The notes under the pieces: generated by a model
Databases searched by the model: none
Seen by the model: only the letters and a program-made list of their open reading frames with translations
What the model was told of the DNA's origin: nothing
Translations under genes and position numbers: made by a program
IMG/VR virus record: IMGVR_UViG_3300031111_000017
Span: 1-41,235 of that record
Direction: 5' to 3' (one strand)
Source: a virus
DNA length: 41,235 nt
Shown here: positions 362-40,202 of the stretch, piece after piece
Position numbering within the stretch: the first letter of the stretch is position 1
Layout: each line of letters begins with the position of its first letter

Positions 362-1045
362 GAGGTCCACCACGTTCGCCCGTTGGGAATGGGCGGTGCG
401 TATACGCGCGACGTGGTAGAGAACTGCATCACACTGTGCGCAGAACATCACCAAGACGTTGAGAACGGAAAGCGGTGGATTCAGGAGTTCGACCGTGACC
501 GAAACGTCTTCGTTTGGTGTGACCAGATGCACAAGCCGATGAACATTGAGCTGTGGTTCTACCGCCGTCAGGACGCCGAACGCGGCGAACAGATCACGAC
601 GCGCCTATCCGCCTACGCCATGATCGACAAGGACGTTGCGCGGGACGCGCACGAGCTTCGCCAGGTGTTCAAGGCTGTGGATCCTGAGTCAAGGTCGTTC
701 AAGGAGTATCTCGCGGAGAGGGGGATTGATCCGCGGCTGGACCGCGCAGCGCAGCTCTACTCAAAGAGCCTCGACTGTGACGTCAGGTGGGAAGAAGGCG
801 TGACGGCGACGGACTACCGGAGGATGTTGCGCGATGCTGGCAAGTCTGACCCGCGCAAATACTTCTACGCGAAGCTGCCGCCGGGGACGGAGTTCTACCG
901 GACTGCGAACGAGCAGAAGCTGCGCGATCAGATGGACTTTGGGGAAAAGCTCGTGAAGATCGGCAAGACGGTATGGGGGTTGCGATCTGACCGTGGGGTT
1001 CTAGTCGATCCGGACGGGAATGAGATGGAGGTGGTGCATGTCTGA
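269..1045 (+). CDS. HNH endonuclease-domain protein
   Basis: 258 aa. Residues 15-63 form a zinc-supported HNH nuclease fold: a CxxC pair (Cys19, Cys22), a double histidine (His34-His35), then CxxHH (Cys57, His60, His61). The HNH family cuts DNA using a metal-bound histidine. The roughly 190 residues after the nuclease are not recognised. The gene starts on the overlapping ATGA of the replication gene and belongs to that operon. A phage HNH protein next to replication or terminase genes may aid packaging cleavage or be a homing-type nuclease; its role here is inferred. The copy at 41143 is cut off by the window end. Confidence 0.8.
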   Translation: MSRSQSVREEALRLDGYRCQVCGADRDTAVLEVHHVRPLGMGGAYTRDVVENCITLCAEHHQDVENGKRWIQEFDRDRNVFVWCDQMHKPMNIELWFYRRQDAERGEQITTRLSAYAMIDKDVARDAHELRQVFKAVDPESRSFKEYLAERGIDPRLDRAAQLYSKSLDCDVRWEEGVTATDYRRMLRDAGKSDPRKYFYAKLPPGTEFYRTANEQKLRDQMDFGEKLVKIGKTVWGLRSDRGVLVDPDGNEMEVVHV

Positions 1046-1412
1046 ATGGATCACGGCGACTGAGGCAAGCAGGCTCTACGGGATTGGATCTGCTGTCGTC
1101 CATCGGCTCGCGTCCTCTGGACAGTGGCCGAAGAGGAAAGAGAGGCAATCCGTCAAGGGCGATGATCGCGAGGTTGTGCTGTTTCGGCGACAGGACTTGG
1201 ATCGGTTCCGCGAGTCCGATCGGTTTGACCGATTCCGAAATGCGCTGTCACTCGTTGAGTGGGCGGACTCGTTGGCAGAATGGCCAACAGATGAGGAAAT
1301 CGAGGAACGCACAACCGAAGTCTACAGATACAAAGACATCGTGAGCGTATTGGAGAATCGCGTGTATCGAAAGCGTCCTGCGCTGCAAAGAGTGACGCCA
1401 TGCGCAGTGTAG
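1038..1412 (+). CDS. Small helix-turn-helix (excisionase/MerR-like) DNA-binding protein
   Basis: 124 aa from the ATG at 1038, preceded by a GGAGGTGG-like ribosome site and overlapping the HNH stop by 8 bp. The N-terminus (tATEASRLYGIGSAVVHRL) has the form of the winged-helix start of excisionase/AlpA/MerR-like proteins, and is followed by a basic stretch around residues 38-55. The rest is charged and unrecognised. It could be a transcription regulator of the early region or a small terminase-like DNA binder. There is no integrase in the window, so a classical excisionase role is doubtful. Confidence 0.55.
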   Translation: MSEWITATEASRLYGIGSAVVHRLASSGQWPKRKERQSVKGDDREVVLFRRQDLDRFRESDRFDRFRNALSLVEWADSLAEWPTDEEIEERTTEVYRYKDIVSVLENRVYRKRPALQRVTPCAV

Positions 1413-1415
1413 CTA

Positions 1416-1444
1416 TTGACTCTTCGGAAAAATCGGGTTAAACT
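1416..1444 (+). promoter_or_regulatory. Sigma70-like promoter
   Basis: TTGACT (1416-1421), a 17-bp spacer, then TAAACT (1439-1444), located between the stop at 1412 and the next coding start. The TTGACT hexamer recurs in the promoters at 8718, 9842, 32609 and 37538. Confidence 0.55.
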
Positions 1445-1472
1445 TAGACCCGGTGAAAGGGTGGGATCAGGC

Positions 1473-1760
1473 GTGAGCGAAGAGCAAGCGGTGAAGCTGC
1501 AACGCGCGATCGAGCTGATTTCAGAGGCGTGTGGTCTTGACAAGGAGACGGTTGGCGTATACGTGAAACCGCTCACAGCACAAGACAAGAAGGTGCTCTA
1601 TCTTCTCAAGAAGATCGCGTCCTCGCTGCGCAGCGTCAAGGTTGAAGTTGGATTAAAAGACGGGATGATCGTCCACGCAGAGCCTCTGCACGGGTTGAGC
1701 GTTGACCAGCAACTTGCGCTGTACGAGCCGTCGATCATAAGGAGGTCCGACACGAAGTAG
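1473..1760 (+). CDS. Unknown 95-aa phage protein
   Basis: I chose the GTG at 1473 because AGGGTGG lies about 8 bases upstream; a GTG at 1461 is possible. Starts further upstream would fall inside the promoter. The protein is helical and charged, with no recognisable domain; residues roughly 10-60 alternate leucine/isoleucine with lysine/glutamate. It is the only gene between the promoter at 1416 and the terminator at 1813, so it may be a monocistronic early transcript. Confidence 0.6.
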   Translation: MSEEQAVKLQRAIELISEACGLDKETVGVYVKPLTAQDKKVLYLLKKIASSLRSVKVEVGLKDGMIVHAEPLHGLSVDQQLALYEPSIIRRSDTK

Positions 1761-1783
1761 AGAAGGATACTGTTGCCGCAGTA

Positions 1784-1841
1784 GCCCAGAGGGGCATCGT
1801 CTTTACTGACTCCCTCACCCGAAAGGGTGGGGTTTTGTTTT
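1784..1841 (+). terminator. Hairpin plus Rho-independent terminator
   Basis: A small hairpin (GCCC, loop agag, GGGC at 1784-1795) is followed by CCTCACCC, a GAAA tetraloop and GGGTGGGG (1813-1832), then TTTTGTTTT. The terminator sits 12 bases before the start codon of the next gene, whose ribosome site is GGAGGGG at 1842-1848. Genes downstream therefore depend on read-through or antitermination. The same hairpin-terminator-gene layout appears at 9888 and 32656. Confidence 0.8.
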
Positions 1842-1852
1842 GGAGGGGACAG

Positions 1853-2332
1853 ATGAAACTAACAGCGTTCCACAGGGGAAACATCAAGGGTCAAATCCAA
1901 TCGATCTTCAAACCATTCGAGCAGTTCCTCAATCCCGGTGATGAGTTTGACTACGCCAAGCTGAACATTGCGAGCTGCCATCTGCAAGGCACTCTCGAGG
2001 GCGTTGTCTGGCTCCCGCTCACCGAAGACTCTCCAACCTTCCAAACGGTTCTCGGCATCGAGCAGGGCGACGAATGGCCGGGAGAGATTCCCTTCGCCGG
2101 CTTCTATGCCATTTCCCCGAATGAGTGCTTCCGCGCCATCGAGCCAGAAACGCCGTATCTCGTATACGTGACGGGCTGGGAATCGGGAGAGGTGCGCGAC
2201 GTTTCGGGGAATGTCGTTCGTGACGCGCAGGTGTTTGTGCAGCGTCCGATCACTGAGCCGAACTACGTGTATCTGTCAGGCAACACCGTCTACCACATGG
2301 GTTGCGTGAAGATCACGATGAACCAGGCATGA
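1853..2332 (+). CDS. Unknown 159-aa phage protein
   Basis: ATG at 1853 behind the strong ribosome site GGAGGGG. An in-frame start further upstream would lie inside the terminator and is rejected. The sequence is mixed alpha/beta with many aromatic residues and no signal peptide or membrane segment; I do not recognise a family. It is the first gene after the terminator and is coupled to the next gene by ATGA. Confidence 0.65.
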   Translation: MKLTAFHRGNIKGQIQSIFKPFEQFLNPGDEFDYAKLNIASCHLQGTLEGVVWLPLTEDSPTFQTVLGIEQGDEWPGEIPFAGFYAISPNECFRAIEPETPYLVYVTGWESGEVRDVSGNVVRDAQVFVQRPITEPNYVYLSGNTVYHMGCVKITMNQA

Positions 2333-2726: not shown

Positions 2727-3469
2727 TGGAAGCGACGGCAACGGGTCAACTTGTCATTGGAATTGGGACTGGGCGATGTGGCACGGTCTCGCTTGCGCAG
2801 TTGCTGAACGCTCAACCGGACGCACGAGTGACGCACGAATCCGAGCCGTGGCTGCCATGGCGGAAGGAACATGCGTCGGCGAGCGAGCGGGCATTCATGA
2901 AGCGCACGTGGGGGATCTTCGATCCTGTTGACGTATACGCGCAGAAGGTTCAGCGATTCGCGGAACGACTCGACGAGTATTCGCTAGTTGGTGACGTTGC
3001 ATTCTTCTGGTTGCCGTATGTGGATGCGCTCCGAGTTGACTTCCCTGACGTCAAGGTCGTTGGGCTTTGGCGGGACAAGGAATCCTACATCGAGAGTGCG
3101 TGGAGAAAGACAGGCGGCGACCAGGGGCCGAACTTCTGGGACTGTCCGCTGTGTGAGTCATGGTCGCTGACCTTCCCGCAGTACCGCGGCGTGCCGAAGC
3201 GAGATGCGATCGAGATGTATTGGGAAGACTACCGGCGATGGATTGACTGCAACGCTGACTACGTGATGAGGATGGATGATCTGAATGACGAGACGAAGCA
3301 AGACGATCTGTTCAACTTTCTCGGCATTGACTCCCACGTTCACCAATTCGAGCGGTTCAATGTCGGGCCTGGAGACTACGCGGCGGCGAACGGTGTTCGA
3401 GAGGATAAGGACGGCGTTGCGTTCAACCTGTTCAAGGTTGGCGGAACTCTGGTGAGGGGTGAAGCGTGA
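2726..3469 (+). CDS. Sulfotransferase-like P-loop protein
   Basis: 247 aa from the ATG at 2726. The N-terminus (vIGIGTGRCGTVSLAQLL, residues 10-27) matches the PAPS-binding 5'-phosphosulfate loop of sulfotransferases, where a GTxRSGT-type loop replaces a true Walker A. A second feature is VVGLWRDKESYIESAW around residues 109-124, like the 3'-phosphate loop (RDP..s..S). Known family reaction: transfer of sulfate from PAPS to a sugar, lipid or tyrosine. Unusual in a phage. With the glycosyltransferase-like genes at 17786 and 23865, the likely target is a glycan on the virion or the host surface (inference). Confidence 0.65.
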   Translation: MEATATGQLVIGIGTGRCGTVSLAQLLNAQPDARVTHESEPWLPWRKEHASASERAFMKRTWGIFDPVDVYAQKVQRFAERLDEYSLVGDVAFFWLPYVDALRVDFPDVKVVGLWRDKESYIESAWRKTGGDQGPNFWDCPLCESWSLTFPQYRGVPKRDAIEMYWEDYRRWIDCNADYVMRMDDLNDETKQDDLFNFLGIDSHVHQFERFNVGPGDYAAANGVREDKDGVAFNLFKVGGTLVRGEA

Positions 3470-3834: not shown

Positions 3835-4148
3835 GCAAACTTGAGGGGCTGTTCAAGATCCTGCTTCAATCGAACAGGCTTGACGGCTTTGTTCAAGAAT
3901 ATCGCTTCCATCCGACGCGGAGATGGAGATTCGACTTCGCGTTCCCCAAGCAGAAGGTGGCAGTCGAGGTCGAGGGCGGTGCGTATACGCGCGGACGGCA
4001 CACGCGAGGATCCGGATTCACCGCTGACTGCGAGAAATACAGCCACGCGGCGGCAATGGGATGGAAGGTGTTGCGATTCACCGGGGAACAGATCACGCGC
4101 AAGCCACGGGATTGTATGGGGCTAGTGAGGATGGCGCTGAATGACTGA
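3831..4148 (+). CDS. PD-(D/E)XK-type endonuclease
   Basis: 105 aa from the ATG at 3831. Residues about 27-45 carry the core motif: rFDFAFP with an acidic residue, then vAVEVEGG (ExE type), followed by a basic strand and a C-terminal gWKVLRFTGEQI that resembles VSR/DUF559-like nucleases. Family members nick or cut DNA, for example in mismatch or junction processing. With the HNH protein and the methyltransferase nearby, it may act in packaging or in restriction-like functions; the substrate is not visible. Confidence 0.65.
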   Translation: MSKLEGLFKILLQSNRLDGFVQEYRFHPTRRWRFDFAFPKQKVAVEVEGGAYTRGRHTRGSGFTADCEKYSHAAAMGWKVLRFTGEQITRKPRDCMGLVRMALND

Positions 4149-4287: not shown

Positions 4288-4682
4288 TGGGGCGACCGAC
4301 GAAGTACGACGCAGACTACCATCCGCGTTCCGCTTTAGAGATGGCGAGCCAGGGTCTGATCGTTGCTGAGATGGCGGCGACATGGGGCGTTGCGAAGTCT
4401 ACCGTATACGAGTGGCGGGGAAAGCACCCTGAGTTTTCGGACGCCCTAAAGACTGGAGCGGACAACGTAGATGATCAGATCGAGAAAGCGCTTTACAACA
4501 AAGCCCTCGATGGTGACACAACCGCAATGATCTTCTGGTTGAAGAATCGGCGCAGCAATACATGGCGAGATAGACACATCCAGAAGCTCGAAGGCGAAGT
4601 GAAGATTGACTATTCAGACGCAGCGCGAGAAGTCTTGGATAGGTTGGGCGAATGCGATTCGGATCACTCTTCGCAGGAATAG
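4287..4682 (+). CDS. terS: Terminase small subunit
   Basis: 131 aa. The N-terminus has GRPTKYDADY followed by a helix-turn-helix (residues 24-45, including vAKSTVYEWRGKHPEF), the usual DNA-binding head of small terminase subunits that recognise packaging sites. A helical middle for oligomerisation and a C-terminal tail that would contact the large subunit follow. The ATG at 4287 is preferred; a GTG three bases upstream is possible. The gene overlaps the methyltransferase by 31 bp and lies two genes before the large subunit, the usual order. Confidence 0.75.
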   Translation: MGRPTKYDADYHPRSALEMASQGLIVAEMAATWGVAKSTVYEWRGKHPEFSDALKTGADNVDDQIEKALYNKALDGDTTAMIFWLKNRRSNTWRDRHIQKLEGEVKIDYSDAAREVLDRLGECDSDHSSQE

Positions 4683-5437
4683 GCGGCATCGACCTCGGAT
4701 TAGAACGCGCCGGGATGGAATGCGCTTGGCAGGTGGAGATAGATGACTACGCAACCAGAGCCCTCGAAAAGCACTGGCCGGACGTGGCGAGATTTAGAGA
4801 CATCCGAGAAGTCGGCGCAGCAAATCTCGCTCCGGTTGATCTCATCTGCGGAGGATTCCCATGCCAGCCTCACTCACTTGCCGGTAAGCGCAAAGGCAGC
4901 GAAGACGAGCGCGACTTGTGGGGAGAGATGTTCCGAGTTATTTGCGAAGTTAAGCCCAGATGGGTGCTGGCTGAGAACGTTCCAGGACTGCTCTCCTCTG
5001 AGGCTGGACGGTACTTTGGAAGAATTCTCAGGGACTTGGTCGGCGTCGGGTTCGATGTCGAATGGGAAAGCATACCGGCGGCAGCGGTTGGTGCGCCGCA
5101 TGGACGTGATCGAGTTTATATCGTGGCCTACGCCAATGGCTACGGATGGAATGATGCCAATGACCGCGAATGCGGCTACGAACGAACGCAAGAATGCAAC
5201 GGGATTCCGTCCAAGTGGAGTCCGCATCGGTTCTTCAGTGGCTTGGTGCGACCAAGTGATAGCAGACTGGAGAAAACACGGTGGCGAACTGAATCCCGAC
5301 CTCTCGGAGTGGCTGATGGGGTTCCCTCTCGGGTGGACCGACTTAGAAGCCTCGGTAACGCAGTCGTCCCACAAGTTGCAGAGTGGATCGGGCGAAGGAT
5401 AGTCGAATGTCAGAATCAAGCTGGATCGACTCACTAG
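4652..5437 (+). CDS. C5-cytosine DNA methyltransferase
   Basis: 261 aa. Motif I FAGIGGIDLGLERAG (residues 7-21) binds S-adenosylmethionine; motif IV GGFPCQ has catalytic Cys71; motif VI ENV (108-110); motif VIII GRDRVYI (151-157); motif X SLGNAVVPQVAEWIG near 233-247. The region between motifs VIII and X, which reads the target, is only about 65 residues, so the enzyme is smaller than usual. Phage enzymes of this type protect packaged DNA from host restriction. It starts inside terS and ends 31 bp inside the large terminase gene. Another long frame is nested in it (4743-5402). Confidence 0.92.
   Translation: MRFGSLFAGIGGIDLGLERAGMECAWQVEIDDYATRALEKHWPDVARFRDIREVGAANLAPVDLICGGFPCQPHSLAGKRKGSEDERDLWGEMFRVICEVKPRWVLAENVPGLLSSEAGRYFGRILRDLVGVGFDVEWESIPAAAVGAPHGRDRVYIVAYANGYGWNDANDRECGYERTQECNGIPSKWSPHRFFSGLVRPSDSRLEKTRWRTESRPLGVADGVPSRVDRLRSLGNAVVPQVAEWIGRRIVECQNQAGSTH
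4743..5402 (+). CDS. Overprinted 219-aa protein within the methyltransferase gene
   Basis: Frame +1 relative to the methyltransferase. ATG at 4743 has GGTGGAG six bases upstream, and the stop lies four bases before the large terminase ATG, ideal operon spacing. The product contains lEEFSGTWSASGSMSNGKAY, WPTPMATDG and LNPDLSEWLMGFPLGWTDLE, a motif set I recall from phage and bacterial hypothetical proteins that occur with C5 methylases. Not a nuclease or methylase itself as far as I can see. It may be a true dual-coded gene, or its resemblance may follow from the conserved methylase residues read out of frame. Function unknown. Confidence 0.5.
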   Translation: MTTQPEPSKSTGRTWRDLETSEKSAQQISLRLISSAEDSHASLTHLPVSAKAAKTSATCGERCSELFAKLSPDGCWLRTFQDCSPLRLDGTLEEFSGTWSASGSMSNGKAYRRQRLVRRMDVIEFISWPTPMATDGMMPMTANAATNERKNATGFRPSGVRIGSSVAWCDQVIADWRKHGGELNPDLSEWLMGFPLGWTDLEASVTQSSHKLQSGSGEG

Positions 5438-6675
5438 CGCAGGACCAGAAGTCACAGCTTCGGTCACTGAGTGAGAAGGATCTAGCGTTACTGCGCTACG
5501 ACTGGCGCAAGTGGGCAAGGCCGAAACAGATAGCCCCTGATGGCGAGTGGTCTGTTTGCATGTGGATGACAGGCCGAGGATGGGGCAAGACTCGTTGTGG
5601 GAGTGAGTGGGTCAGGGAACAAATCAACGCTGGACTCAAGCGCATTGCTCTTGTAGCCCCGACCGCAGCCGACGCCCGCGATGTCATGGTGGAAGGCGAA
5701 TCGGGAATCCTCTCAATCTCGCCGTCGTGGGATCGGCCAACATACGAACCATCGAAACGACGCCTCACCTGGAAGAATGGCGCGATTGCAACTACCTACT
5801 CAGCCGACGAACCGGAACGACTAAGAGGCCCACAGCATGACGGTGCTTGGTGCGATGAGTTAGCGGCGTGGCGCTATCCCGAAGCGTGGGACATGCTAAT
5901 GTTCGGACTACGGCTAGGGACGAATCCTCAGTGCATCATCACCACTACGCCGAAACCAAGGAAGCTCATTCGCAAGATCCTAGAGGACGACAGTGCGGTC
6001 ATCATTCGCGGGTCAACCTACGAGAACAGATCCAACCTTGCGCCGGCATTCTTCTCGCAGATTGTCAAAACGTATGAAGGGACGACGCTTGGCCGGCAGG
6101 AGCTACACGGTGAGGTGCTGACAGACATTCCCGGTGCGCTCTGGCATCGCGGGTTGATCTGTCGAGCAGACGAGCCGGCCACGTTCGATCGAGTTGTTGC
6201 TGCAATCGATCCAGCGGTGACCAGCGGGGAGAACTCCGACGAGACAGGCATCATCGTCGCCGGCAAGCTGGGCGATCGGTTCTACACACTCGAGGATCTT
6301 AGCGGGCGTTACACGCCTGAGCGATGGGCTCGGATTGCTGTAGAGGCATACCACCGCTGGCAGGCGGATCGGATTGTTGGAGAGGTAAACAACGGCGGCG
6401 ACATGATCGAGTCTGTCATTCGGCAAGTGGATCGAAACGTTGCGTATACGTCTGTTCGGGCGTCGAGAGGGAAGGCAGTTCGCGCCGAGCCGATTGCGGC
6501 GTTGTATGAGCAGGGGCGTGGCTTCCACGTGGGATCCTTCCCAGAGCTCGAGGACCAGATGTGCAGCTGGACGGTAGACGCGGACTGGTCGCCGGACAGG
6601 ATGGATGCGCTGGTTTGGGCGGGAACCGAGTTGATGCTAGGCACGCACTTGATCACGCGAGTGGGGTCGGTATGA
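5407..6675 (+). CDS. terL: Terminase large subunit
   Basis: 422 aa. Walker A GRGWGKT (56-62), Walker B GAWCDE (147-152) with catalytic Glu, and coupling motif iITTTPKP near 179-185. The C-terminal RNase H-like nuclease shows aIDPAVTSG (Asp269), a central aDRIVGEVNNGG segment (321-332) and DRMDALVWA near the end. The protein pumps DNA into the procapsid and cuts the concatemer. The start at 5407 is chosen because the sequence begins MSESSW after a GAAGGA site; it overlaps the methyltransferase end. The stop overlaps the next ATG. Confidence 0.95.
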   Translation: MSESSWIDSLAQDQKSQLRSLSEKDLALLRYDWRKWARPKQIAPDGEWSVCMWMTGRGWGKTRCGSEWVREQINAGLKRIALVAPTAADARDVMVEGESGILSISPSWDRPTYEPSKRRLTWKNGAIATTYSADEPERLRGPQHDGAWCDELAAWRYPEAWDMLMFGLRLGTNPQCIITTTPKPRKLIRKILEDDSAVIIRGSTYENRSNLAPAFFSQIVKTYEGTTLGRQELHGEVLTDIPGALWHRGLICRADEPATFDRVVAAIDPAVTSGENSDETGIIVAGKLGDRFYTLEDLSGRYTPERWARIAVEAYHRWQADRIVGEVNNGGDMIESVIRQVDRNVAYTSVRASRGKAVRAEPIAALYEQGRGFHVGSFPELEDQMCSWTVDADWSPDRMDALVWAGTELMLGTHLITRVGSV

Positions 6676-6821: not shown

Positions 6822-7021
6822 TGGTCAGACGAACCCGAGCGTATACGATCCACCTGCGCGAGTCAGGCAACGGCGACAGGCACGATCAGGATGTGATTGA
6901 CGCGCTGGATAGCGGCAGCAGAGTTGGCTTGATTCGGGCGTGCATCCGGGCGCAGTTGCATCCTGAGATGCTGACGGATGGTGACAGGGAGTTGTTGAGG
7001 AGGGTGCGCGGTGAAGAATGA
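6821..7021 (+). CDS. Unknown 66-aa protein
   Basis: The start at 6821 is fixed by AAGGAGG six bases upstream. Basic N-terminus, then acidic; one helix pair in the second half (DALDSGSRVGLIRACIRAQL). It is the first gene downstream of the promoter at 6769. No family recognised. Confidence 0.65.
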   Translation: MVRRTRAYTIHLRESGNGDRHDQDVIDALDSGSRVGLIRACIRAQLHPEMLTDGDRELLRRVRGEE

Positions 7022-7280: not shown

Positions 7281-7917
7281 GCGAATCGCACTGATACTCG
7301 CCGTTCTCGCGCTGACTGGATGTGTTGCGCCAGAGATTGACGTTATCCCCACGGCGACGGAATCGCGCCCACCTGTGTTCTCGAGCCACCTGCTGCTCAA
7401 CGGCATTCCCGGCGACGAATACCTGAGCGTTGCCATGCGGTATCTGGTTGACCTGCGCTATCGATCAGCAGACGAACGAGGGCCGTGGACGGGCGTATAC
7501 GATCCTGACGGCGACGTGGTAGAGGTCGTGAGTGTGCGGACGTGGATGCTGCTCTACGGCGAGTGGGTAGAGGACGCTGTGTTCTGCCCACCGTATGACG
7601 GCGGAATTCACGCCTGCTGGAGAGCTGGCGAGACGACATACATCGAGCCTGCGTTCGTTCTGTATCCAGGGACGGGGCGCTGGACATCTGACGGCGTGCT
7701 CGTGTGTCCATACCCAGAGACAGGCTACGCATCGCCGTTTCTCGGCTGGTATCCAATGCGCAGCGGCGAAGGGTGCTACTCGACGTGGCATCCACAGACG
7801 AGCTACAAGATTGGGGTTACTGCGACAGACGGACATAGCGTGGTGACGCACAACTACTACCTAACCATGGGCGCATCGCTGGGAGGGAATGCGAGCATCG
7901 CGAGGGAGGAAATGTGA
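7273..7917 (+). CDS. Lipoprotein, paralogue of the one at 36042
   Basis: 214 aa. Signal peptide MGRRIALILAVLALTGC with lipobox LTGC predicts a lipid-anchored Cys17. The body contains GVYDPDGDVVEV (Ig/PKD-like strand pattern) and then GEW-PPY-GG-YP-GY-GW landmarks that also occur in the same order in the lipoprotein at 36042. Phage lipoproteins typically act at the host envelope, for example in superinfection exclusion (inference). Expressed from the 6769 promoter block. Confidence 0.75.
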   Translation: MGRRIALILAVLALTGCVAPEIDVIPTATESRPPVFSSHLLLNGIPGDEYLSVAMRYLVDLRYRSADERGPWTGVYDPDGDVVEVVSVRTWMLLYGEWVEDAVFCPPYDGGIHACWRAGETTYIEPAFVLYPGTGRWTSDGVLVCPYPETGYASPFLGWYPMRSGEGCYSTWHPQTSYKIGVTATDGHSVVTHNYYLTMGASLGGNASIAREEM

Positions 7918-9941: not shown

Positions 9942-9956
9942 TGCTTCGGGGGTGTA

Positions 9957-11936
9957 ATGGGGGTAGGTCAATCCGCAATTGACGCGATCGCACGATGGGC
10001 AGTCCGACGAAGCTCTTACGCTCCGTCGGCTCCTCGCGTTGATGGCGGCTCGGTTTCCGGTATGCCGTTATGGTCTGACTGGTCAACCGAACGTGCGATC
10101 AAGGACGGCTACAAAGCCCACTATGCGCTCTACGCGGTGACCTCCGATCTAGCTTCGTGTATACGCTCCGTTCCGTGGAATCTCTATCGCCGGACGACTG
10201 ACGGTGCGGAGGTTGTTGATACTCACCCGCTGGCTGAGTTCATCCGGCGACCAAACGGGCAGGAGACGTGGGGTGCGCTGATGGAGGCATGGGACACATA
10301 CAAGTCCCTTTCCGGCAATGCTTACGGGCTTGTGAGTCAAGCCGGCGACAGCGTGCAGGTATGGAAGTTGCGACCGGACAGGATGAAGCCCATCCCTGAC
10401 AAGAAGGGATACGTCGCCAGGTGGGAGTACACCGTGGATGGTGCGCCGGACTACTTCAAGCCGGAAGACATCCTGCACTTCAAGTTCTTCGATCCTGGCA
10501 ACGACCATCTGGGAATGGCTCCGCTTCAAGCGGCTGCGCATCTGATAGACACGTCAAACGCAGGGATTGGATCGAACAAGGCGCTTGTGAACAACCTCGG
10601 CCGGCCTGGTGGTATGTTCAACCCAGACGGATCAGTTCCGCCGTTGAGCGAAGAGCAGCTTAGTAGCTGGGTCAAGTCGATCAAGGCACAGACGACGGGG
10701 AAGAATCGCGGTCAGTACCTTGTCAATCCATTTGCTGCGAGTTTCCAGCACTTTGAGTTCACTCCGGTTGAGCTGGACTACCTGAACAGTTTCGTCACCT
10801 ACGAGAACGGTATCTACAAGGCGTTCCACGTGCTACCCGAGGCGATGGGCGCTGAATCCACATACGAGAACAAACGATGGGCCATTCGCGAGAAGTGGAA
10901 TGGGCCGGTGACCACTCGATTGAGAGAGATGCGCGGTGTATTGAATCACCGCTTTAGCGATGCCTTTGGGACGGCATATCCGGCGGCGGTCGGGGATCTG
11001 TATTTGGACTACGACCTGACCGATACGCCGGCAGTGCAGGAACAGCGCAAGGAACTGATTGAGGCCGCGAACAAGGTATGGGCGATGGGCGTTCCTTGGG
11101 ACGTGATCGATCGCGAGATGGATCTTGGATTCGGTCCGCAACCTGGTGGCGACACAGGCTACATCTCCTCAATGACGTTGCCCGTTGGCGCATCACCTGT
11201 AACTGAAAGCCGTTCAAAGCTGCCTGACGACCATCGAGCTGCGTATTGGAGAGCTACCGACCGCCGCAAGCAGGGGTGGGAACGTGGGGTAGCCGAGAAG
11301 GCGAAGGATCTGTTTGCGGCGGAACGTGGCACTGTCGTCAAAGCCATTGAAGGCGGAACGCTCGACGTGGAATACCTGATTGACGCGAACCGCGAGGCGT
11401 GGGAGCGGCTTCTCTACGCCGTATACAGGGCGATCATCGAGGACTTCGGGCTCATTGTGAACACCCAACTCACGGGGCGCGCAGACGGTGACTTCGATCC
11501 GTGGACGGACCACATCCAAGACTTCGTGACGAGACGGACGGCGGAGCAAGTGACGCTCATTCAAACGACCACGAAGGATGCCATCCGCAAGGTTGTTCTC
11601 TCTGGGGTCAACGACGGGCTGTCCATCACAAAGATCGCGCGACAGGTCCGCGAGTCGATGGAGAACGCGAGCGTATACAGATCAGTAATGATTGCCCGCA
11701 CGGAAGTCCACGCGGCGGCGGGGTACGCGATGCACGAGTCCGCGAAGCAATCAGGCGTAGCGCAGGAGAAGCACTGGCTCGATTCCGGCGACGAGCGGGT
11801 GAGGGATTCCCACGCAGGCAACACGGCGGCGGGTTGGATTCGATTCGACGAAGCATATCCAAACGGTGCGATGTATCCCGGCGACGGGACGGACGACATC
11901 AATTGCAGATGCACCGAGATGTATAGGGCGGGGTGA
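9957..11936 (+). CDS. Portal protein fused to MuF-like head morphogenesis domain
   Basis: 659 aa. The start at 9957 follows CGGGGGTG; earlier in-frame starts lie inside the terminator. Residues 1-390 are an HK97-type portal (pWNLYRR, hPLAEFIRRPN, gNAYGLV, fDPGNDHLGMAPLQAA, N-rw-IrEKWNGPV). Residues roughly 430-659 are MuF-like: a helical stretch, then iARTEVHAAAGYAM and a C-terminus with wLDSGDERVRDSH and DDINCRCTEM. Portal and MuF are often separate; the fusion is known in some HK97-like phages. The portal ring is the DNA channel and MuF a minor internal head protein. Confidence 0.92.
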   Translation: MGVGQSAIDAIARWAVRRSSYAPSAPRVDGGSVSGMPLWSDWSTERAIKDGYKAHYALYAVTSDLASCIRSVPWNLYRRTTDGAEVVDTHPLAEFIRRPNGQETWGALMEAWDTYKSLSGNAYGLVSQAGDSVQVWKLRPDRMKPIPDKKGYVARWEYTVDGAPDYFKPEDILHFKFFDPGNDHLGMAPLQAAAHLIDTSNAGIGSNKALVNNLGRPGGMFNPDGSVPPLSEEQLSSWVKSIKAQTTGKNRGQYLVNPFAASFQHFEFTPVELDYLNSFVTYENGIYKAFHVLPEAMGAESTYENKRWAIREKWNGPVTTRLREMRGVLNHRFSDAFGTAYPAAVGDLYLDYDLTDTPAVQEQRKELIEAANKVWAMGVPWDVIDREMDLGFGPQPGGDTGYISSMTLPVGASPVTESRSKLPDDHRAAYWRATDRRKQGWERGVAEKAKDLFAAERGTVVKAIEGGTLDVEYLIDANREAWERLLYAVYRAIIEDFGLIVNTQLTGRADGDFDPWTDHIQDFVTRRTAEQVTLIQTTTKDAIRKVVLSGVNDGLSITKIARQVRESMENASVYRSVMIARTEVHAAAGYAMHESAKQSGVAQEKHWLDSGDERVRDSHAGNTAAGWIRFDEAYPNGAMYPGDGTDDINCRCTEMYRAG

Positions 11937-16545: not shown

Positions 16546-16904
16546 TGTTTGACCAGCGTATACGCATTGAGACAGGAAGCCGAACGGCGACTGCCACGTC
16601 TCCGACTGGGGCGTGGTCTTCGAGTTCTACCGAGACGAGATGGGCAGAGGCGGTAGTCATTTCTCCTGCACAAGCGGTGAATCGCTACCAGATTCCTTTT
16701 GACGACAAGCTGATGTGGGAGTTTCGGTTCAACGACGAGCCGTCGATCTCACTGGGCAATACGAGATTCGTGTGGGTGACAAACGGCCATCCGAACAACC
16801 TGAAGATCTACTGGCCAAGGTCAACCCCGATCAACGTTGACGGAGAGGGTCGCGTGACGACGGTGCTGGTTGAAGAGGATACAGAGGAGACAGCGAATGC
16901 CTAG
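16545..16904 (+). CDS. Head-tail adaptor (head closure) protein
   Basis: 119 aa. ATG overlaps the connector stop (TGATG). It begins MFDQRIRIETGSRTATA and continues with beta strands, the pattern of SPP1 gp16/HK97 gp7-like head closure proteins that seal the neck. Correct position between connector and gp10-like protein. Confidence 0.75.
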   Translation: MFDQRIRIETGSRTATATSPTGAWSSSSTETRWAEAVVISPAQAVNRYQIPFDDKLMWEFRFNDEPSISLGNTRFVWVTNGHPNNLKIYWPRSTPINVDGEGRVTTVLVEEDTEETANA

Positions 16905-17292
16905 CGCGTTTGTTTCAAACCTACCCATGGCGCTTGCGAAAGTAGTCGCCGAGTCTCAGAAGGCATTGAGATCAGCGGCGGACGTTGGGCGTAATCAGAC
17001 GGTGAAGAATCTGACCGGGGCGCGATCGGGGCGACAGTACAAAGTGCCGGGGACGAGCGTGACGTATACGGCGTCTGCCCCTGGTGAGTTCCCAGCCGTG
17101 CAGACTGGGCAGCTTCGATCAAATGTGCGTATACGGCCAGAGGGCGACGGGTATCAGGTAGGAACGGACGTTGAGCACGGGCTTTATCTGGAGAAGAAGC
17201 CACCGCAACAGGGCGGACGTGAGTGGCTGAAGCCATCTCTCGAGCAAGCAAGACCGGCAATGCTCGCGGAGTTGAGCAAGCGATGGTTCTAG
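16897..17292 (+). CDS. HK97 gp10-like neck/tail completion protein
   Basis: 131 aa. Helical N-terminus, then gRQYKVPGT, TYTASAPGEFPAVQTGQLR and a C-terminal gREWLKPSLEQ, all hallmarks of the gp10-like family that joins neck and tail. Two CGTATACG sites fall in this gene (17063 and 17128). Confidence 0.85.
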   Translation: MPSAFVSNLPMALAKVVAESQKALRSAADVGRNQTVKNLTGARSGRQYKVPGTSVTYTASAPGEFPAVQTGQLRSNVRIRPEGDGYQVGTDVEHGLYLEKKPPQQGGREWLKPSLEQARPAMLAELSKRWF

Positions 17293-28775: not shown

Positions 28776-30019
28776 TGGCAGAGACTACCGTATACGCAAG
28801 CTCAGGCGGCGGCGAGCTCCTACTGCAACAACTGGCGACGGCGGCGTCGTGCGCTATCTGGCAGATTTCCGTGAATGCTACGATGTCTGACACGTCCTCA
28901 ACCTACTATCGACTGCTCGGAAGCCGCGCGGCCATCGGCGGTGGGAAATACAACCAATACATCCGGCGGGGATTCATCTACTTCGACCTGTCAAGCATCC
29001 CCGCTGTGGCGTCTGTCTCGTCCGCTACGCTCTATGTGTACATCAAGTCGCAATCGGCTACCTATGGAATTGGGCCGGGCCTCAAAGTCAGAAGCGGCCA
29101 GCCAACCTATCCCAGCGAAAGCGGCGGATCTCCCAACCTTCAGCTTTCAGACTTTGGCCAGGCCTACTACTCCGACATTGCGAGTGTTGCCGATTCAAGC
29201 ATTTCAGTCGGGTCATACAACGCGATCTCGATTCCTGTGGGAAACATCAACCCCGGTGGGTTGACCAAGTTTTGCCTTACCTGTGACTATGAATGCAATG
29301 GCACTGACAGATACGAGCAGCTTGAATACTACTCAAACAACGCAGCGGAGGCGCTGCAGCCGAAATTGACTGTCGTATACGATCCAGGCGGCGAAACGGG
29401 CATTGAAGCGTCCGCGAGTGTTGACGCCACTGGAGACCGCGTACGTTACGCGACAGCCGCTATCTCGCCTGCGTGTTCTCTTGCCGGGGATCCCGACATC
29501 GTGTGCGACGGCTCGGCGGCAATCTCCGGAGTGGCGAGCATCGATGCGCTGGCCAACTACATCGTAGGGTCGGGCGTGGAGATTGGCTCGACGATCAGCC
29601 TCTACCTGGACTGGGGGTCGCCGGGATTCTGCAACATCAGCGCAACGGCAAGCATCTCCGGACAGGCAACACGAATGCGGTTTGGTGAGGTTTCGATTGA
29701 GTCCGCGATTGCGCTCGTGTTGGAAGCAACGCGCGTATACAGCGGGCAAGTAACGATTGCCGTCAATACGTCTGCTTCGGCGGCTGCGCTTGCCTACGTC
29801 ACTCGGACGCTCGGATACACCGGGAATCTGTCAAGCGGCGACAGGCTAGTCATCGACACCGACAGGATGACGGTCAAGCTGAACGGGGCTGACGTCAGGG
29901 CAAACATGACGGGTGACTTCGTGAAGCTATTCCCAGGAACGAACACGATCAAGTACGAAGACAGCGACGGATCTCGAAACATCTCACTAGACGTCGAACA
30001 CGAACCGAGGTGGTTGTGA
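28775..30019 (+). CDS. Second fibre/adhesin with DNRLRE-like domain and same C-terminus
   Basis: 414 aa. Residues 30-205 look like a DNRLRE/CBM-type carbohydrate-binding domain (RRGFIYFDLSSIP, then SATLYVYIKS, ending LTVVYDPGG). An Ala/Ser repeat stretch follows, then a C-terminal domain (about 346-414; YTGNLSSGDRLVID to HEPRWL) nearly the same as in the preceding gene. Even the DNA at the gene end and next start (ccgaggtggttgt, ATGGCA) is repeated, so a cassette was duplicated. Confidence 0.75.
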   Translation: MAETTVYASSGGGELLLQQLATAASCAIWQISVNATMSDTSSTYYRLLGSRAAIGGGKYNQYIRRGFIYFDLSSIPAVASVSSATLYVYIKSQSATYGIGPGLKVRSGQPTYPSESGGSPNLQLSDFGQAYYSDIASVADSSISVGSYNAISIPVGNINPGGLTKFCLTCDYECNGTDRYEQLEYYSNNAAEALQPKLTVVYDPGGETGIEASASVDATGDRVRYATAAISPACSLAGDPDIVCDGSAAISGVASIDALANYIVGSGVEIGSTISLYLDWGSPGFCNISATASISGQATRMRFGEVSIESAIALVLEATRVYSGQVTIAVNTSASAAALAYVTRTLGYTGNLSSGDRLVIDTDRMTVKLNGADVRANMTGDFVKLFPGTNTIKYEDSDGSRNISLDVEHEPRWL

Positions 30020-31989
30020 TGGCAGTCAACGCGCCGGTTGTGATCTACGATACCAGTCTGAACAAGCAGGCATATCTCCCCTTGGCGTTTGACGTTGCCT
30101 ACGAATTGAGGGCAAACGAGGTCGGGCGTGCGTGGTTCTCCATTCCGCTAGACGATCCGCACATCCATGAGGTGACAGAGCTGCGATATGCTGAATTGTT
30201 CGACGGAGATTCACGCGTTGAGATGTTCCGAATTCTCAAGTCGTGGAAGGGAAGAGACGCACGCAGCGAATACGTCAGGTTTGAGTGTGAACACGTTCTC
30301 GGAACGCTCATGGATGACGAGTTCGATGATACGTTCAATGCAGGTTCAGTATCAGGCACGTCGCAAGCCATCACGGACATTCTCGCCGAACAGGGAACGG
30401 GACGCTGGACAAAGGGAACGTGCGCGTTCTCTGAATCCTACCTCTACGAATGGGAGCGCGGAACGTCGATTCTGAAGGCGCTGCTAGATGTTCCCAAGAG
30501 ATTCCAAGAGGGCTACTTCTGGACGTTTGATACGACGTCGTATCCCTGGACGATCAACCTGATTGCCCCGCCTTCGTCCGTAACCGCCTACATCGATTAT
30601 GGGCGAAACTTGAAGTCAATCGAGCGCGAGATGGATATGACCGGCCTTGTGACCAAGCTCTACCCGCACGGGTCGGGGTCGGGCACTGACCAAGTTGGCA
30701 TCACCTCAGAAGAGCCGAGCAGTCACGAATACATCACGAACAACACTGGAACCTATGGCACGATCGTCCACCACTGGACCGACCAAAGGTATCAAACCGA
30801 AGCAGAACTATACACGGCTGCGGTTGAGAAGCTGGCCGTTCTATCCGTTCCTAAGTATACCTACAAGATCGCTGCGGCGGATCTCTACCAGTTGACGCAA
30901 GAATCCATTGACGACTTCGACATTGGCACTCTCGTTACGGTGAATGACGAGGGGCTTGACATCGACGTTGACGTAAGGGTGATGGGCATTCGGAAGGGTG
31001 ACGTTACAGGGTCGCCGGGCGAGGTTCAATACGAGCTTGCGAACAAGGGTGAGGAATTCGACCTATCCGAGAAGCTAGAGTCAAACGATCTATCTGGAGT
31101 GTCCATTGCGAACATCCCCGGTGGCTCTGTCGGGTCATTGCCTTCAACCCCAACTGACGCGGGGCTCTACATCTCGAGTTCCTACCTTGGCTACCACAAC
31201 GGCTCTAGCTGGGCAACCTACATGGGAGATGATGGACGACTCTATGCCTCAGACGGGACGTACTACTTCGACTTCAACCCAGTGGCGGGAACGCTTTCGA
31301 TCAAGATCTCCTCAATTGACATCTCAGCAGACTCAAACGTGGTTGATACGGCGCAGATTGTGGATGGCGCGGTTACGAATGCGAAGATCGATTCCCTATC
31401 AGTCTCGAAGCTGACCGCAGGAACGGTTGACGCGCAGACGATCACGCTTGCCGAGACAACGGGATCCGCGATTCGGCAAGGCAAGGATAGCTTTGCAGAT
31501 ACTGACCCTGGCTTCTGGCTAGGCTACGCAGCGAGCTCATCCTTGTTCTCAATTGGCAACGCGACGAACTACATGAAGTGGACGGGAACAGACCTGCTCG
31601 TCAAGGGCAGCATTACCGGCGACATCAGCGCAGACCTCAATATGTCCGGCCATGCGCTCTACAACTGCACCGACCTGCGCGGCGGAACAGGTGCTGCAAC
31701 GAACACGCTCAATCTCGATACGAATGAATGGCTTGGTGAGGATGCGAACACCTATCTCCTGCTCGACAAAGATGCCGGCAGTCTGAGGTGGGCTGGTGAC
31801 GGGACCGTATACGCAGGCTCTGGCTTGACGCTGCAATCGGGCGGCGACTTCACGATCCAATACGACAGCGGATCATATGCTCTCGAGCTGCAGACAACGC
31901 TTGACAGCGGATCGCATACCAGCGTCCACGGATACCTCGTGTGCAAGGATTCCGGTGGGACGACGTGTTACATCCCAGTAACGACATAG
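30019..31989 (+). CDS. Tail-associated (Tal-like) protein with fibre extension
   Basis: 656 aa, ATG 30019. Residues 1-350 fit the gp27-like hub of Tal/prophage endopeptidase-tail proteins (AFDVAYELRANEVGRAWFSI, fRILKSWKGR, fDIGTLVTVNDEGL). The rest is beta-fibre: QIVDGAVTNAKIDSLSVSKL (a repeat common in tail tip proteins) and Gly/Thr-rich strands. It should close the tail tube and support fibres. No catalytic motif seen. Confidence 0.8.
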   Translation: MAVNAPVVIYDTSLNKQAYLPLAFDVAYELRANEVGRAWFSIPLDDPHIHEVTELRYAELFDGDSRVEMFRILKSWKGRDARSEYVRFECEHVLGTLMDDEFDDTFNAGSVSGTSQAITDILAEQGTGRWTKGTCAFSESYLYEWERGTSILKALLDVPKRFQEGYFWTFDTTSYPWTINLIAPPSSVTAYIDYGRNLKSIEREMDMTGLVTKLYPHGSGSGTDQVGITSEEPSSHEYITNNTGTYGTIVHHWTDQRYQTEAELYTAAVEKLAVLSVPKYTYKIAAADLYQLTQESIDDFDIGTLVTVNDEGLDIDVDVRVMGIRKGDVTGSPGEVQYELANKGEEFDLSEKLESNDLSGVSIANIPGGSVGSLPSTPTDAGLYISSSYLGYHNGSSWATYMGDDGRLYASDGTYYFDFNPVAGTLSIKISSIDISADSNVVDTAQIVDGAVTNAKIDSLSVSKLTAGTVDAQTITLAETTGSAIRQGKDSFADTDPGFWLGYAASSSLFSIGNATNYMKWTGTDLLVKGSITGDISADLNMSGHALYNCTDLRGGTGAATNTLNLDTNEWLGEDANTYLLLDKDAGSLRWAGDGTVYAGSGLTLQSGGDFTIQYDSGSYALELQTTLDSGSHTSVHGYLVCKDSGGTTCYIPVTT

Positions 31990-33519: not shown

Positions 33520-33538
33520 CAGAGAGATGAACTGCGAG

Positions 33539-33614: not shown

Positions 33615-33625
33615 GGGGAGGCGTT

Positions 33626-34348: not shown

Positions 34349-34920
34349 TGCGACGAATAGCCTGGACAGGACGATCGACGGCGCGGCTTGTTGGACTGAT
34401 TCTCGCCTGTGGACTATGCGTATACGTCGGATTCTGCATACACGGTTGCGGGCCGACAGAGCCGCCGAAACCGCCAGAGCCTACAACGAATGCAGACCCG
34501 ATCTCGCTGCCGCCATTCATCGCCTCTACGTCTCAATCAGCGGGCGCGTATGTGCTGATCGACGTGCGACACCGCGAGCATGGGTGTGATTCGAGCGGGA
34601 ATCCAACAAGCGTCACCGGGGCATACGATCCCGATGGCGATTCCATGGAATACCGATTCGAGTGCGCGTGGAGTGTGTTCGACGATGCGGGTGAGAAGAT
34701 CAATGACGAGTGGGTGACTTTTCCCGAAGAGACGCATCCAAACGGCAAGACGGAGCAAGCAGCCATCGTGAAGCTGTGGATTGGCTGGACGGAAGATTCC
34801 CCGCTGATGCCCGTTGCGCCACAAGACTGCGGACCCGATCCTAGTCCCGTGCAGTTTGTGTACTCCGTGCGAGATGGGAAAGGCGGGGAAGCGTCTTGCT
34901 CGGCGGTGATTGGCAAATGA
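34348..34920 (+). CDS. Lipoprotein with Ig/PKD-like motif
   Basis: 190 aa. Start 34348 overlaps the previous stop (TGATG). Basic N-terminus, hydrophobic core and IHGC lipobox, then a Pro-rich spacer (PTEPPKPPEPT). Contains GAYDPDGDSMEYRF, like the lipoprotein at 7273, and FVYSVRDGKGG, typical of Ig/PKD-type folds. A TTCCATGGAA palindrome falls in this motif. Confidence 0.65.
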   Translation: MRRIAWTGRSTARLVGLILACGLCVYVGFCIHGCGPTEPPKPPEPTTNADPISLPPFIASTSQSAGAYVLIDVRHREHGCDSSGNPTSVTGAYDPDGDSMEYRFECAWSVFDDAGEKINDEWVTFPEETHPNGKTEQAAIVKLWIGWTEDSPLMPVAPQDCGPDPSPVQFVYSVRDGKGGEASCSAVIGK

Positions 34921-36041: not shown

Positions 36042-36644
36042 ATGAGGAGAATGTGGTTCGCTCTGATGTGCGTTCTCTTGACGGGTTGCAGCATGATTGC
36101 GCCCGAGATCCCGTCTGTCGCTCCGGTTGACGACCCCGTCTTCGAGCCAAGCCCAGTGATCTATCCGCCAGTCATCAATGGCCTGAAGGATTGCTGGTAT
36201 CTGACGCCGTTCGCGCGAACGCTCATCTCGTTTGAGCAGTCCGTTTACTACGACGGCGAGTGGGCGGCGGAAAGCATCATCGTTCGCGGGTCTTCGTATC
36301 CGCAGCCGTATACGATCTTTCACCCGCCCTACGAGTCGGGCGTGTGCCACGCGGAGTATGGTTTCGTGCATGAGAACTCGTGCATCGTCTATCCGCTCTA
36401 CGTGAGCATTGACAACGGCGGACTGCCCTACTCGCCGACTGCGCTTGACACGGGATACCCGCACATCGGATGGAAGAATACCAACGCGCTGTATGCGGAG
36501 TTTCCATCGTCGAGTGACAGCGAGCTGGAGATCCCTGCGCAAGATGGAGAGATCATCGTGCGTATACGCGACGAAACGGGGCGCATCACGGAGGCTCGGT
36601 TTGAGATTCCGATTCAGGCGCTCGACTACGGCGTCTCGAATTAG
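36042..36644 (+). CDS. Lipoprotein, paralogue of the one at 7273
   Basis: 200 aa. Signal peptide MRRMWFALMCVLLTGC (LTGC lipobox). Shares with the 7273 protein APEI after the Cys, GEW, PPY-G-C/A, YP and GY-IGW landmarks in the same order. Single-gene transcript from the 36004 promoter, unlike the operon copy at 7273. Envelope role inferred. Confidence 0.7.
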   Translation: MRRMWFALMCVLLTGCSMIAPEIPSVAPVDDPVFEPSPVIYPPVINGLKDCWYLTPFARTLISFEQSVYYDGEWAAESIIVRGSSYPQPYTIFHPPYESGVCHAEYGFVHENSCIVYPLYVSIDNGGLPYSPTALDTGYPHIGWKNTNALYAEFPSSSDSELEIPAQDGEIIVRIRDETGRITEARFEIPIQALDYGVSN

Positions 36645-37791: not shown

Positions 37792-38116
37792 GGAGGGGAC
37801 AACCAACCGGGTTGCCGCCCGGTCAGAAACTAACAGTGTAACAAGCAGCGTAGCACAATCGGACCTTCCGGTCAAGATCATCGATCGCTACTACCACCCA
37901 TTCTCTACGCTGTCCAGCGGCCTACTCGCCGTCCAATCCAACTGCAACGAAAGCCGATTCCTCATCGAGGATGAGATCCCGTGGCTGGGCGTGTTTTTCC
38001 GTGCTCCGTCTGACGCTGAATCCGAAGAGATTGAGCGTATACGGGACGCGGTTATGGATGCGCATGATCGCTTGGATGACATGGCGAAGCACGTTGCCAG
38101 AACGGGGATGTGGTAG
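37754..38116 (+). CDS. Unknown 120-aa protein
   Basis: AAGGAGG at 37741-37747 sets ATG 37754, which lies within the end of the regulator gene (38-bp overlap). Disordered start, then a beta/helix region (LAVQSNCNESRFLIEDEIPWLGVFFRAPSD) and a C-terminal helix. Two hairpins are encoded near its start (37773-37798, 37806-37823). Confidence 0.6.
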   Translation: MSIQKSAPPQRTEEGTTNRVAARSETNSVTSSVAQSDLPVKIIDRYYHPFSTLSSGLLAVQSNCNESRFLIEDEIPWLGVFFRAPSDAESEEIERIRDAVMDAHDRLDDMAKHVARTGMW

Positions 38117-39092: not shown

Positions 39093-39301
39093 TGCCTACA
39101 AGCATCATCAACATTCCGCCGAACGTCCGCGAACACATGCTCGAATGCCTGGAGTGGTTCTTCGACCACGCATACAGCGGCGAGCCTCTGAATGGATGGC
39201 AGTGGGGATTCATCGAGGAAATTGCGCGAGAGGATCGCGTGTGCGATCCGCAAGACTACCTAGCACACGTCGAGAGGCTGATCTATGGAGGGGAAGAATG
39301 A
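39092..39301 (+). CDS. Unknown 69-aa protein
   Basis: ATG overlaps the ERF stop, TGA overlaps the next ATG. Helical and aromatic (LECLEWFFDHAYSGEPLNGWQWGF cut into parts: LECLEWFFDHAY; GWQWGFIEEI). No family; recombination block member. Confidence 0.55.
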   Translation: MPTSIINIPPNVREHMLECLEWFFDHAYSGEPLNGWQWGFIEEIAREDRVCDPQDYLAHVERLIYGGEE

Positions 39302-39738
39302 CTGCATTCCATGGAATGATTGGCAAGGTATTCGAGAACGAGACGAAGTCCGGCAAGCCGTATCTCTCTGCCGTCATCGAAGTGGACGACCACGGCGAAG
39401 GCAAGTTCAACGTCTGGGACACTGATCTGTTCGATCCTGTTCGCGAGCTTGAGGGGGCTCGCGTGATCTTCGAGCGGCGACTTGGCAAGGAGAAAGACGA
39501 CGGGACGCGCTTCCCGGCGACGATCACCTTGATACAAGCGGAAGAGCACGAGCCAACGCCGCACGTCAAGGATCTTGTTGAGGAGATCGAAGCAGAGGCC
39601 GAGCTAGAGGCTGACGTTGACGACGACTTCTTGGACACGCAAGAGCAAAACGCGCGAAAGGAACGCGTTCAGGATGCCGGCACGCGAGCCATGACAGCCA
39701 TCGCAGAACTCGTGGCAATCATCAAAGAGATTGCTTAA
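39298..39738 (+). CDS. OB-fold-like protein, probable SSB partner
   Basis: 146 aa. Residues 4-75 alternate strands in OB-fold order (MIGKVFENETKSGKPYLSAV, gKFNVWDTDL, gARVIFERRLGK, PATITLI), then an acidic linker (EEIEAEAELEADVDDDF) and a C-terminal helix. Acidic tails are usual for SSB-like proteins. The start lies by a GCATTCCATGGAATG palindrome. Identity as SSB is an inference. Confidence 0.55.
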   Translation: MTAFHGMIGKVFENETKSGKPYLSAVIEVDDHGEGKFNVWDTDLFDPVRELEGARVIFERRLGKEKDDGTRFPATITLIQAEEHEPTPHVKDLVEEIEAEAELEADVDDDFLDTQEQNARKERVQDAGTRAMTAIAELVAIIKEIA

Positions 39739-39752
39739 TAGCCTCCTTGTTG

Positions 39753-39784
39753 GGGCGGGGTCTGGCTCCGGGCTTACCCCGCCC
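39753..39784 (+). terminator. Strong GC hairpin, possible terminator
   Basis: GGGCGGGG (39753-39760), 16-nt loop, CCCCGCCC (39777-39784). The tail is only weakly T-rich (tattcct), so termination may be partial. It closes the ERF operon. Confidence 0.55.
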
Positions 39785-39797
39785 TATTCCTAGAGGG

Positions 39798-39827
39798 TTG
39801 AACGGGTTTAACTTTAAGGCATAGACC
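39798..39827 (+). promoter_or_regulatory. Promoter for the structured RNA region
   Basis: TTGAAC (39798-39803), 18 bp, TAGACC (39822-39827). Predicted start near 39834, exactly where the first stem of the structured region begins. A CGTATACG site (39827-39834) covers the start. Confidence 0.5.
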
Positions 39828-39833
39828 GTATAC

Positions 39834-40202
39834 GCGAGGATCAAATGACCACAAAACAGGCTCATCGGGAGAGCAGCGGCACTGCGCGGGTGCGATACCC
39901 GCTCCTCGCATCACTTGTGGCCCAAATCCTAACTGGAGGTGAAGCCGCCTTGGATTGCAGCTTCACTGGGCCACGGATTATGCGCGGCCCGGAAACTATA
40001 CGAACTGAGGTGATAATCCCCTCACGTGTAAGCACCGGATCTGGCAATGCGGGACCGGGTCGCGCTTCCCGCATCTCTGGCTTGACGATTGATACGAATG
40101 GGATGTATGGTAGGGACATCTGCCCTTGCCGAGCTGTCGGCTTGGTAACCCGACGCGAAGGCGCGGCGAAGGTAGAAAGGGAAAGACCCTCGAAATCGAG
40201 GG
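39834..40202 (+). ncRNA. Candidate structured non-coding RNA with pseudoknots
   Basis: No protein-like frame. Perfect pairings: P1 39834-39840/39903-39909; hairpins 39860-39863/39871-39874 and 39886-39891/39897-39902; P3 39917-39924/39967-39974 (8 bp) enclosing crossing stems P4 39925-39929/39952-39956 and P5 39939-39945/39960-39966; P6 39975-39981/40013-40019 crossing P7 40006-40010/40020-40024; hairpin 40047-40053/40068-40074; 40102-40106/40116-40120 crossing 40112-40115/40123-40126; hairpins 40128-40141 and 40187-40202. Not tmRNA, RNase P or tRNA. Function unknown. Confidence 0.55.
40083..40112 (+). promoter_or_regulatory. Possible promoter for the replication initiator gene
   Basis: TTGACG (40083-40088), 18 bp, TATGGT (40107-40112). 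Would give a 185-base leader before ATG 40304. It overlaps the structured region, so either the promoter or the lower pairings may be fortuitous. Confidence 0.4.

Follow-up and report, generated by a model that had tools for sequence, protein, structure and literature searches.

For decades, iterated palindromes such as HIP1 have been on record, to our knowledge without an agreed function. Cyanobacteria carry the highly iterated palindrome HIP1 (GCGATCGC) and alternate HIPs (PMC4390886), and T5, the phiKMV group and Pseudomonas phage tf carry site-specific single-strand nick sites that recur along the genome (tf has 14) and whose consensus shifts by one base between related phages (TACTGTGAC versus TACTATGAC; PMC3517423). 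Here we describe YGTATACR, an iterated palindrome that recurs, mostly as CGTATACG, through the 41,235-bp virus record IMGVR_UViG_3300031111_000017 of IMG/VR (this whole stretch is called the window below) and through the genomes of related tailed phages. HIP1 is its closest counterpart in form, being likewise a dispersed, over-represented 8-bp palindrome of about 600 copies per Mb that lies in genes and has an invariant core and a variable outer base. The first-pass annotation of the window had drawn this comparison, which holds for the form of CGTATACG and not for its sequence. Unlike HIP1, the element was seen across a phage clade, and a methylase specific for it would be hypothetical; we do not place it among the HIPs, since neither a host-wide HIP nor a matching methylase was found among the genomes counted. 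The closest functional analogy would be the nick sites of T5, phiKMV and tf, which resemble it as short sites repeated over a phage genome and in their one-base consensus shift. Those sites are asymmetric and lie on one strand, whereas YGTATACR is palindromic, so that a strand bias cannot be defined, and we do not assign it to that class, nicking being hypothetical here.

The first-pass annotation counted 25 perfect copies of CGTATACG in 41 kb, where about one or fewer would be expected, and about 35 GTATAC cores, 25 of them with C before and G after. Our counts agree: CGTATACG occurs exactly 25 times, from 399 to 39827, and 25 of 35 cores have the C..G flanks, against Markov expectations of 0.59 (order 0), 0.24 (order 1), 0.63 (order 2) and 1.90 (order 3). 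The palindrome thus exceeds composition many-fold, as HIPs do (25 versus 0.2–0.6), and is the top-scoring 8-mer of the window, GTATAC being the top 6-mer. Window densities are 709 YGTATACR and 612 CGTATACG per Mb. A Markov model built from 6- and 7-mers, put forward in the annotation as a possible refutation, does return about the observed number (21–25 at orders 5–6), but the check is circular because such models contain the motif's own 6- and 7-mers. Even spacing of the sites was considered and rejected, the gaps being irregular (coefficient of variation 1.18).

Most copies encode Val-Tyr or Tyr-Thr, and codon usage or repeated peptide motifs could in principle generate them. This artefact is real elsewhere: in the contig L322 (1753-4044), the VYALDADTG repeats of a Dehalococcoidia repeat protein suffice, by their codons, to produce local clusters of CGTATACG, which calls for caution in motif scans. 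For the window it is refuted, and we give it next to no credence. Synonymous-codon shuffles, which preserve proteins and codon usage, yield a mean of 1.46 copies (standard deviation 1.14, maximum 6 in 1000) against 23 observed in coding sequence, in accord with the earlier claim that codon or amino-acid preference is no explanation; the copies are spread over many unrelated genes, and coding GTATA continues to GTATAC in 32 of 35 occurrences. All three codon phases are in use, as the annotation had stated, although its tally of 12, 8 and 4 with one non-coding copy becomes, on the gene model used, 11 Val-Tyr, 8 Tyr-Thr and 4 Arg-Ile-Arg with two copies outside called genes (17312 and 39827). The copy at 39827 is non-coding as described; the promoter in which it was placed was not recovered, no sigma-70-like promoter being found at this position, about 11 bp before the ATG at 39845.

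The element is a sharply bounded 8-bp palindrome, YGTATACR, made of two YGTA half-sites. In the window and its three long relatives (contigs G002, G036 and G038), information beside GTATAC is confined to the adjoining base (1.0 bit each in the window and G002, 0.5 in G036 and 1.3 in G038), and nothing informative lies beyond 8 bp that would amount to an extended operator consensus. Pooling the one-base variants of CGTATACG from these four genomes shows a clear enrichment of TGTATACG alone (24 versus 3.1 expected), all internal variants being near expectation. The half-sites of G002 pick C or T independently (7 CG, 9 mixed, 3 TA), and it is from these observations together that the definition YGTATACR follows. 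A sharp 8-bp boundary with an outer tolerance for T only makes a compact, enzyme-like site. The preferred outer base depends on the lineage: the window (59 C, 4 T) and G038 (49 C, 5 T; 91% C) favour C, G1238 (8 T, 2 C; 80% T) and G1237 (6 T at 3 sites; all T) favour T, and the other genomes are mixed. GC content is 61% in G038, G1238 and G1237 alike, and a shift of the outer base at equal GC is as expected for a co-evolving, lineage-specific reader.

Related contigs were gathered with capsid, tail, HNH and portal queries. In the long and near-complete members, observed and expected YGTATACR counts are 29 and 1.63 (window), 19 and 1.14 (G002), 15 and 2.34 (G036) and 27 and 1.38 (G038); with 27 further clade contigs (114 versus 24.3), the 31 contigs of the clade hold 204 sites versus 30.7 expected. 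The 19 contigs of the portal-related outgroup hold 10 versus 13.6, and 175 other viral contigs (methylase relatives, distant capsid relatives and HNH-domain-only matches) are depleted, with 38 versus 71.2. All sampled enrichment falls within one clade of the portal tree (support 97/96), except for a single copy in the short fragment L213 near the clade edge; L213 and another short fragment, L499, sit on a long branch inside the tree clade, yet were counted with the outgroup. Every well-sampled member of this clade of uncultured phages has the motif dispersed through its genes, at roughly tenfold the chance frequency, and the members without enrichment are mostly short. The palindrome repeated across the phage genome, as first annotated, is real, and is refined here to YGTATACR and to a clade-wide phage trait. 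The contig G038 (L416) has no site in its first 10.4 kb and 27 in the remaining 46 kb; in addition to the terminase, portal and head-morphogenesis genes typical of the clade, it has a second such set, located in the site-free part. It could be a mosaic phage, a tandem prophage or a chimeric assembly, and the site-free module is therefore used as supporting evidence only.

Individual sites tend to persist between close relatives more than ordinary hexamers do: G1227 and G1228 keep 13 of 13 sites where 11.0 are expected, G1236 and G1239 share 4 versus 2.0, and G036 and G1235 share 3 versus 0.9. Between the window and the long relatives most sites differ, the few common ones including the core at 22939, in all four genomes, and that at 17064, in three. 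Near relatives keep their sites and far ones mostly differ; therefore the density of sites is maintained while single ones are slowly replaced, in keeping with selection on site number or a bias driven by a reader.

The comparison within the clade bears on the complete C5-cytosine DNA methyltransferase encoded in the window (4652-5437), which might recognise GTATAC or CGTATACG and drive or require the sites. Weak similarity to C5 methyltransferases in G1231 and G1236, and the link between HIPs and methylases in cyanobacteria (PMC4390886), speak for such a role. However, the gene has no tblastn match in G002, G036 or G038, of which G002 and G038 equal the window in enrichment, no methylase Pfam family appears in the selected non-structural open reading frames of these three genomes (small frames outside the selection were left out), and contigs with related methyltransferases, including the 62%-identical L005, show no CGTATACG excess. 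Since the three relatives are enriched without a recognisable methyltransferase, the window enzyme is, on these homology searches, not required for enrichment. Methylation by a phage enzyme as the sole cause, one of the functions first suggested for the site, is disfavoured, and we hold this role of the window enzyme to be improbable.

Dispersed sites in phage genomes also recall the stoperators of cluster A mycobacteriophages, asymmetric repressor sites spread across the genome and read by a monomeric repressor (PMC9283540). An XRE/HTH_3 regulator might likewise silence a prophage through dispersed operators or stoperators, given that an HTH_3 protein is found in all four long genomes and that G002 and G038 encode serine recombinases, which point to a temperate lifestyle. 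Here, though, the sites are 8-bp palindromes lying nearly all within genes, with none in the upstream region of the repressor, and a contiguous 8-bp palindrome without outer contacts is unusual for a helix-turn-helix dimer. A stoperator system would call for a repressor with conserved recognition residues that match the site, whereas the recognition helix varies among the window, G002 and G038 (TEMSIYNW, ALSSIRNW and GVRTIMRL) while the core site stays constant; in G1227 and G1228 the XRE protein was not detected. We consider a repressor of this kind a decidedly remote candidate.

A further explanation, close to the host-wide signature proposed in the first-pass annotation, is that an uncultured host clade owns a GTATAC-based HIP tied to a GTATAC methyltransferase and that its phages mirror it. 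Nostoc phage N1 (L574; KU234532.1 1-50000) carries 33 dispersed copies of GCGATCGC in 50 kb (0.19 expected) and A1 (L576; KU234533.1 1-50000) carries 27 (0.24), the same density as that of CGTATACG in the window; the string GCGATCGC itself is absent from the N-1/A-1 genome paper. Moreover, cyanobacterial HIP variants retain the methylase core and vary at the outer bases (PMC4390886), which resembles the C/T choice here, and some clade members have a C5 methylase. Anabaena phage A-4L (L573; KF356198.1), on the other hand, has zero HIP1, and therefore mirroring is no necessary consequence of a shared host group. The genomes counted stay far below the window: YGTATACR reaches at most about 70 per Mb in 380 Chloroflexota genomes and about 76 in 18 further genomes, versus 709; in 20 genomes picked for close CGTATACG pairs, the highest CGTATACG density is about 142 per Mb, versus 612. 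In a close-pair scan of genome_contigs (at least 119 rows), none of the dense genomes counted from the matches listed was HIP-like, the dense CGTATACG loci in those matches being local clusters, repeat proteins or modest densities. The trait also covers a deep phage clade from many samples, and G038 holds its site-free 10-kb module. A host-wide signature is thus disfavoured, and we regard mirroring of an uncultured host as unlikely, if by no means negligible.

Searches for a host with the tail-protein profile gave one distant match in Chloroflexota, none in Spirochaetota and three distant matches in the phylum of G469, with no enrichment at the loci examined from these matches, and scanning genome_contigs with a capsid profile brought up no relative. 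Close CGTATACG pairs in viral contigs led mostly to local clusters; tight clusters of 8–9 CGTATACG occur in unrelated phage or bacterial contigs (L125 11087-11844, L150 9486-9871 and L369 2112-2283) and are possibly operator or iteron arrays. Among the cyanophages, CGATCG is missing altogether from A-4L, C5 methylases are encoded by N1 and adenine methylases by A1, and both N1 and A1 also have 32–36 dispersed copies per 50 kb of CCGGARTC, which belongs to a TTCCGGGG/CTCCGGGG element.

We tentatively favour, at somewhat less than even confidence, the reading that YGTATACR is a multi-copy recognition signal of this tailed-phage clade, with a reader that is most likely phage-encoded and for which an HNH protein is the best candidate. 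The gene of this protein is the only non-virion, non-packaging gene common to the window, G002, G036, G038, G1228 and G1231. The protein (about 260 amino acids) is present in contigs that reach its locus, every HNH-positive contig but one (L427) is enriched at P<0.01, and it was not found in the portal-related outgroup contigs G1242, G1243, G1244 and G1246 (33–40 kb), which are not enriched. The window copy (269-1045) has the HNH catalytic motif and fold: PF01844/PF13391 match above cut-off, the AlphaFold model is confident (pLDDT 87.6), and the structure of the domain is matched by other viral HNH proteins. PacI and KpnI are HNH restriction enzymes that read contiguous 6–8 bp palindromes as dimers and so offer a precedent in structure; they share with the present case the HNH domain and the contiguous palindrome, whereas here only the HNH domain is recognisable and cleavage is putative. 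A YGTATACR specificity of the clade's protein is suggested by its co-occurrence with the site. A ribbon-helix-helix protein was also considered as reader and rejected, since it occurs nowhere but in the window and in the G038 module that lacks sites, and the partition signal of the first-pass annotation is disfavoured by the dispersal of the sites, with no par genes seen.

In the mechanism we propose, a dimeric sequence-specific protein, encoded by the phage and perhaps the core HNH protein, would read two adjoining YGTA half-sites of 4 bp. The sites would be held at about one per 1.4 to several kb by selection or by a biased process that stems from the reader, and individual sites would come and go over long times while outlasting neutral hexamers. 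Where the sites lie, the HNH protein may nick or bind its own phage's DNA, for example during replication, recombination or packaging. On a more tentative footing, the palindrome could be owned by the lineage and read by the conserved HNH protein with a co-evolving outer-base preference; it would then be the virus's own equivalent of HIP1 or Chi, serving to tag or process the DNA of the phage.

Several observations weigh against these proposals. HNH presence is confounded with phage ancestry, which makes the protein a candidate and not a proof. L427, of 9.6 kb, is HNH-positive and not enriched (1 site versus 0.80 expected), the clade fragments G1233, G1232 and L211 are not clearly enriched (they have low power or lack the HNH region), and outside the HNH domain the protein model has no PDB match. 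Some 25 sites in the phage's own genome would be lethal under full cutting; therefore nicking, protection or mere binding must be assumed. Phages can also take on the iterated palindrome of a host, as N-1 and A-1 demonstrate. Finally, the excess of site conservation over the average hexamer is a figure without correction for amino-acid constraint. Conservation at synonymous positions in related phages, the check proposed in the first-pass annotation, is borne out in that sites tend to persist, yet the stricter codon-level test is weak, with 17 identical codons versus 11.4 expected in three relatives.

The ends of the window overlap by 361 bp (1-361 and 40875-41235; 99.4% identity), and the genome is therefore circular or permuted, of about 40,874 bp (40.9 kb); no CGTATACG site is double-counted by the overlap, whose two mismatches reflect strain variation at the ends. 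Besides the genes listed in Table 1, it encodes a protease, an HK97-type capsid, tail proteins (one Sipho_tail), an ERF recombinase and a replication initiator. A sulfotransferase-like gene lies within the phage genome at 2651-3469, and small proteins with lipoprotein-type signal peptides are encoded at 7252-7917, 33527-34348, 34342-34920 and 36042-36644, an unusual number for a phage.

Table 1. YGTATACR sites and selected genes of the window; "core" is GTATAC at the aligned place in the genomes named.
Feature	Position	Strand	Remark
CGTATACG site 1	399..406	.	in HNH gene
CGTATACG site	1556..1563	.	
CGTATACG site	2161..2168	.	
CGTATACG site	2932..2939	.	
CGTATACG site	3982..3989	.	
CGTATACG site	4403..4410	.	
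CGTATACG site	6443..6450	.	terminase gene
CGTATACG site	6840..6847	.	
CGTATACG site	7494..7501	.	
TGTATACG variant site	10158..10165	.	portal gene; core common to G038
CGTATACA variant site	11420..11427	.	core common to G036
CGTATACA variant site	11672..11679	.	
CGTATACG site	16557..16564	.	core common to G038
CGTATACG site	17063..17070	.	core common to G036 and G038
CGTATACG site	17128..17135	.	
CGTATACG site	17312..17319	.	between called genes
CGTATACG site	18253..18260	.	
CGTATACG site	22938..22945	.	tail-protein (Sipho_tail) gene; core in 4/4 long genomes
CGTATACG site	27530..27537	.	
CGTATACG site	28570..28577	.	
CGTATACG site	28789..28796	.	
CGTATACG site	29374..29381	.	
CGTATACA variant site	29734..29741	.	
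CGTATACG site	31806..31813	.	core common to G036
CGTATACG site	34419..34426	.	
CGTATACG site	36307..36314	.	
CGTATACG site	36561..36568	.	
CGTATACG site	38036..38043	.	
CGTATACG site	39827..39834	.	non-coding
HNH-nuclease protein, 258 aa	269..1045	+	proposed reader (candidate)
C5-cytosine DNA methyltransferase, complete	4652..5437	+	no recognisable counterpart in G002, G036 and G038, hence not required
Large terminase	5383-6675		
Portal	9888-11936		
Small XRE/HTH_3 regulator, 74 aa	37567..37791	+	related proteins in three long relatives; varying recognition helix; alternative reader

The iterated palindrome described here is inherited within a compact phage clade and comes with one shared non-virion candidate gene, a defined 8-bp site and natural one-base variants. 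Related phages lack both the site and the gene, so that the upkeep of iterated palindromes can be put to a direct test using one protein and short DNA. The full-density HIP1 of N-1 and A-1, set against its absence from A-4L, offers a second natural experiment.

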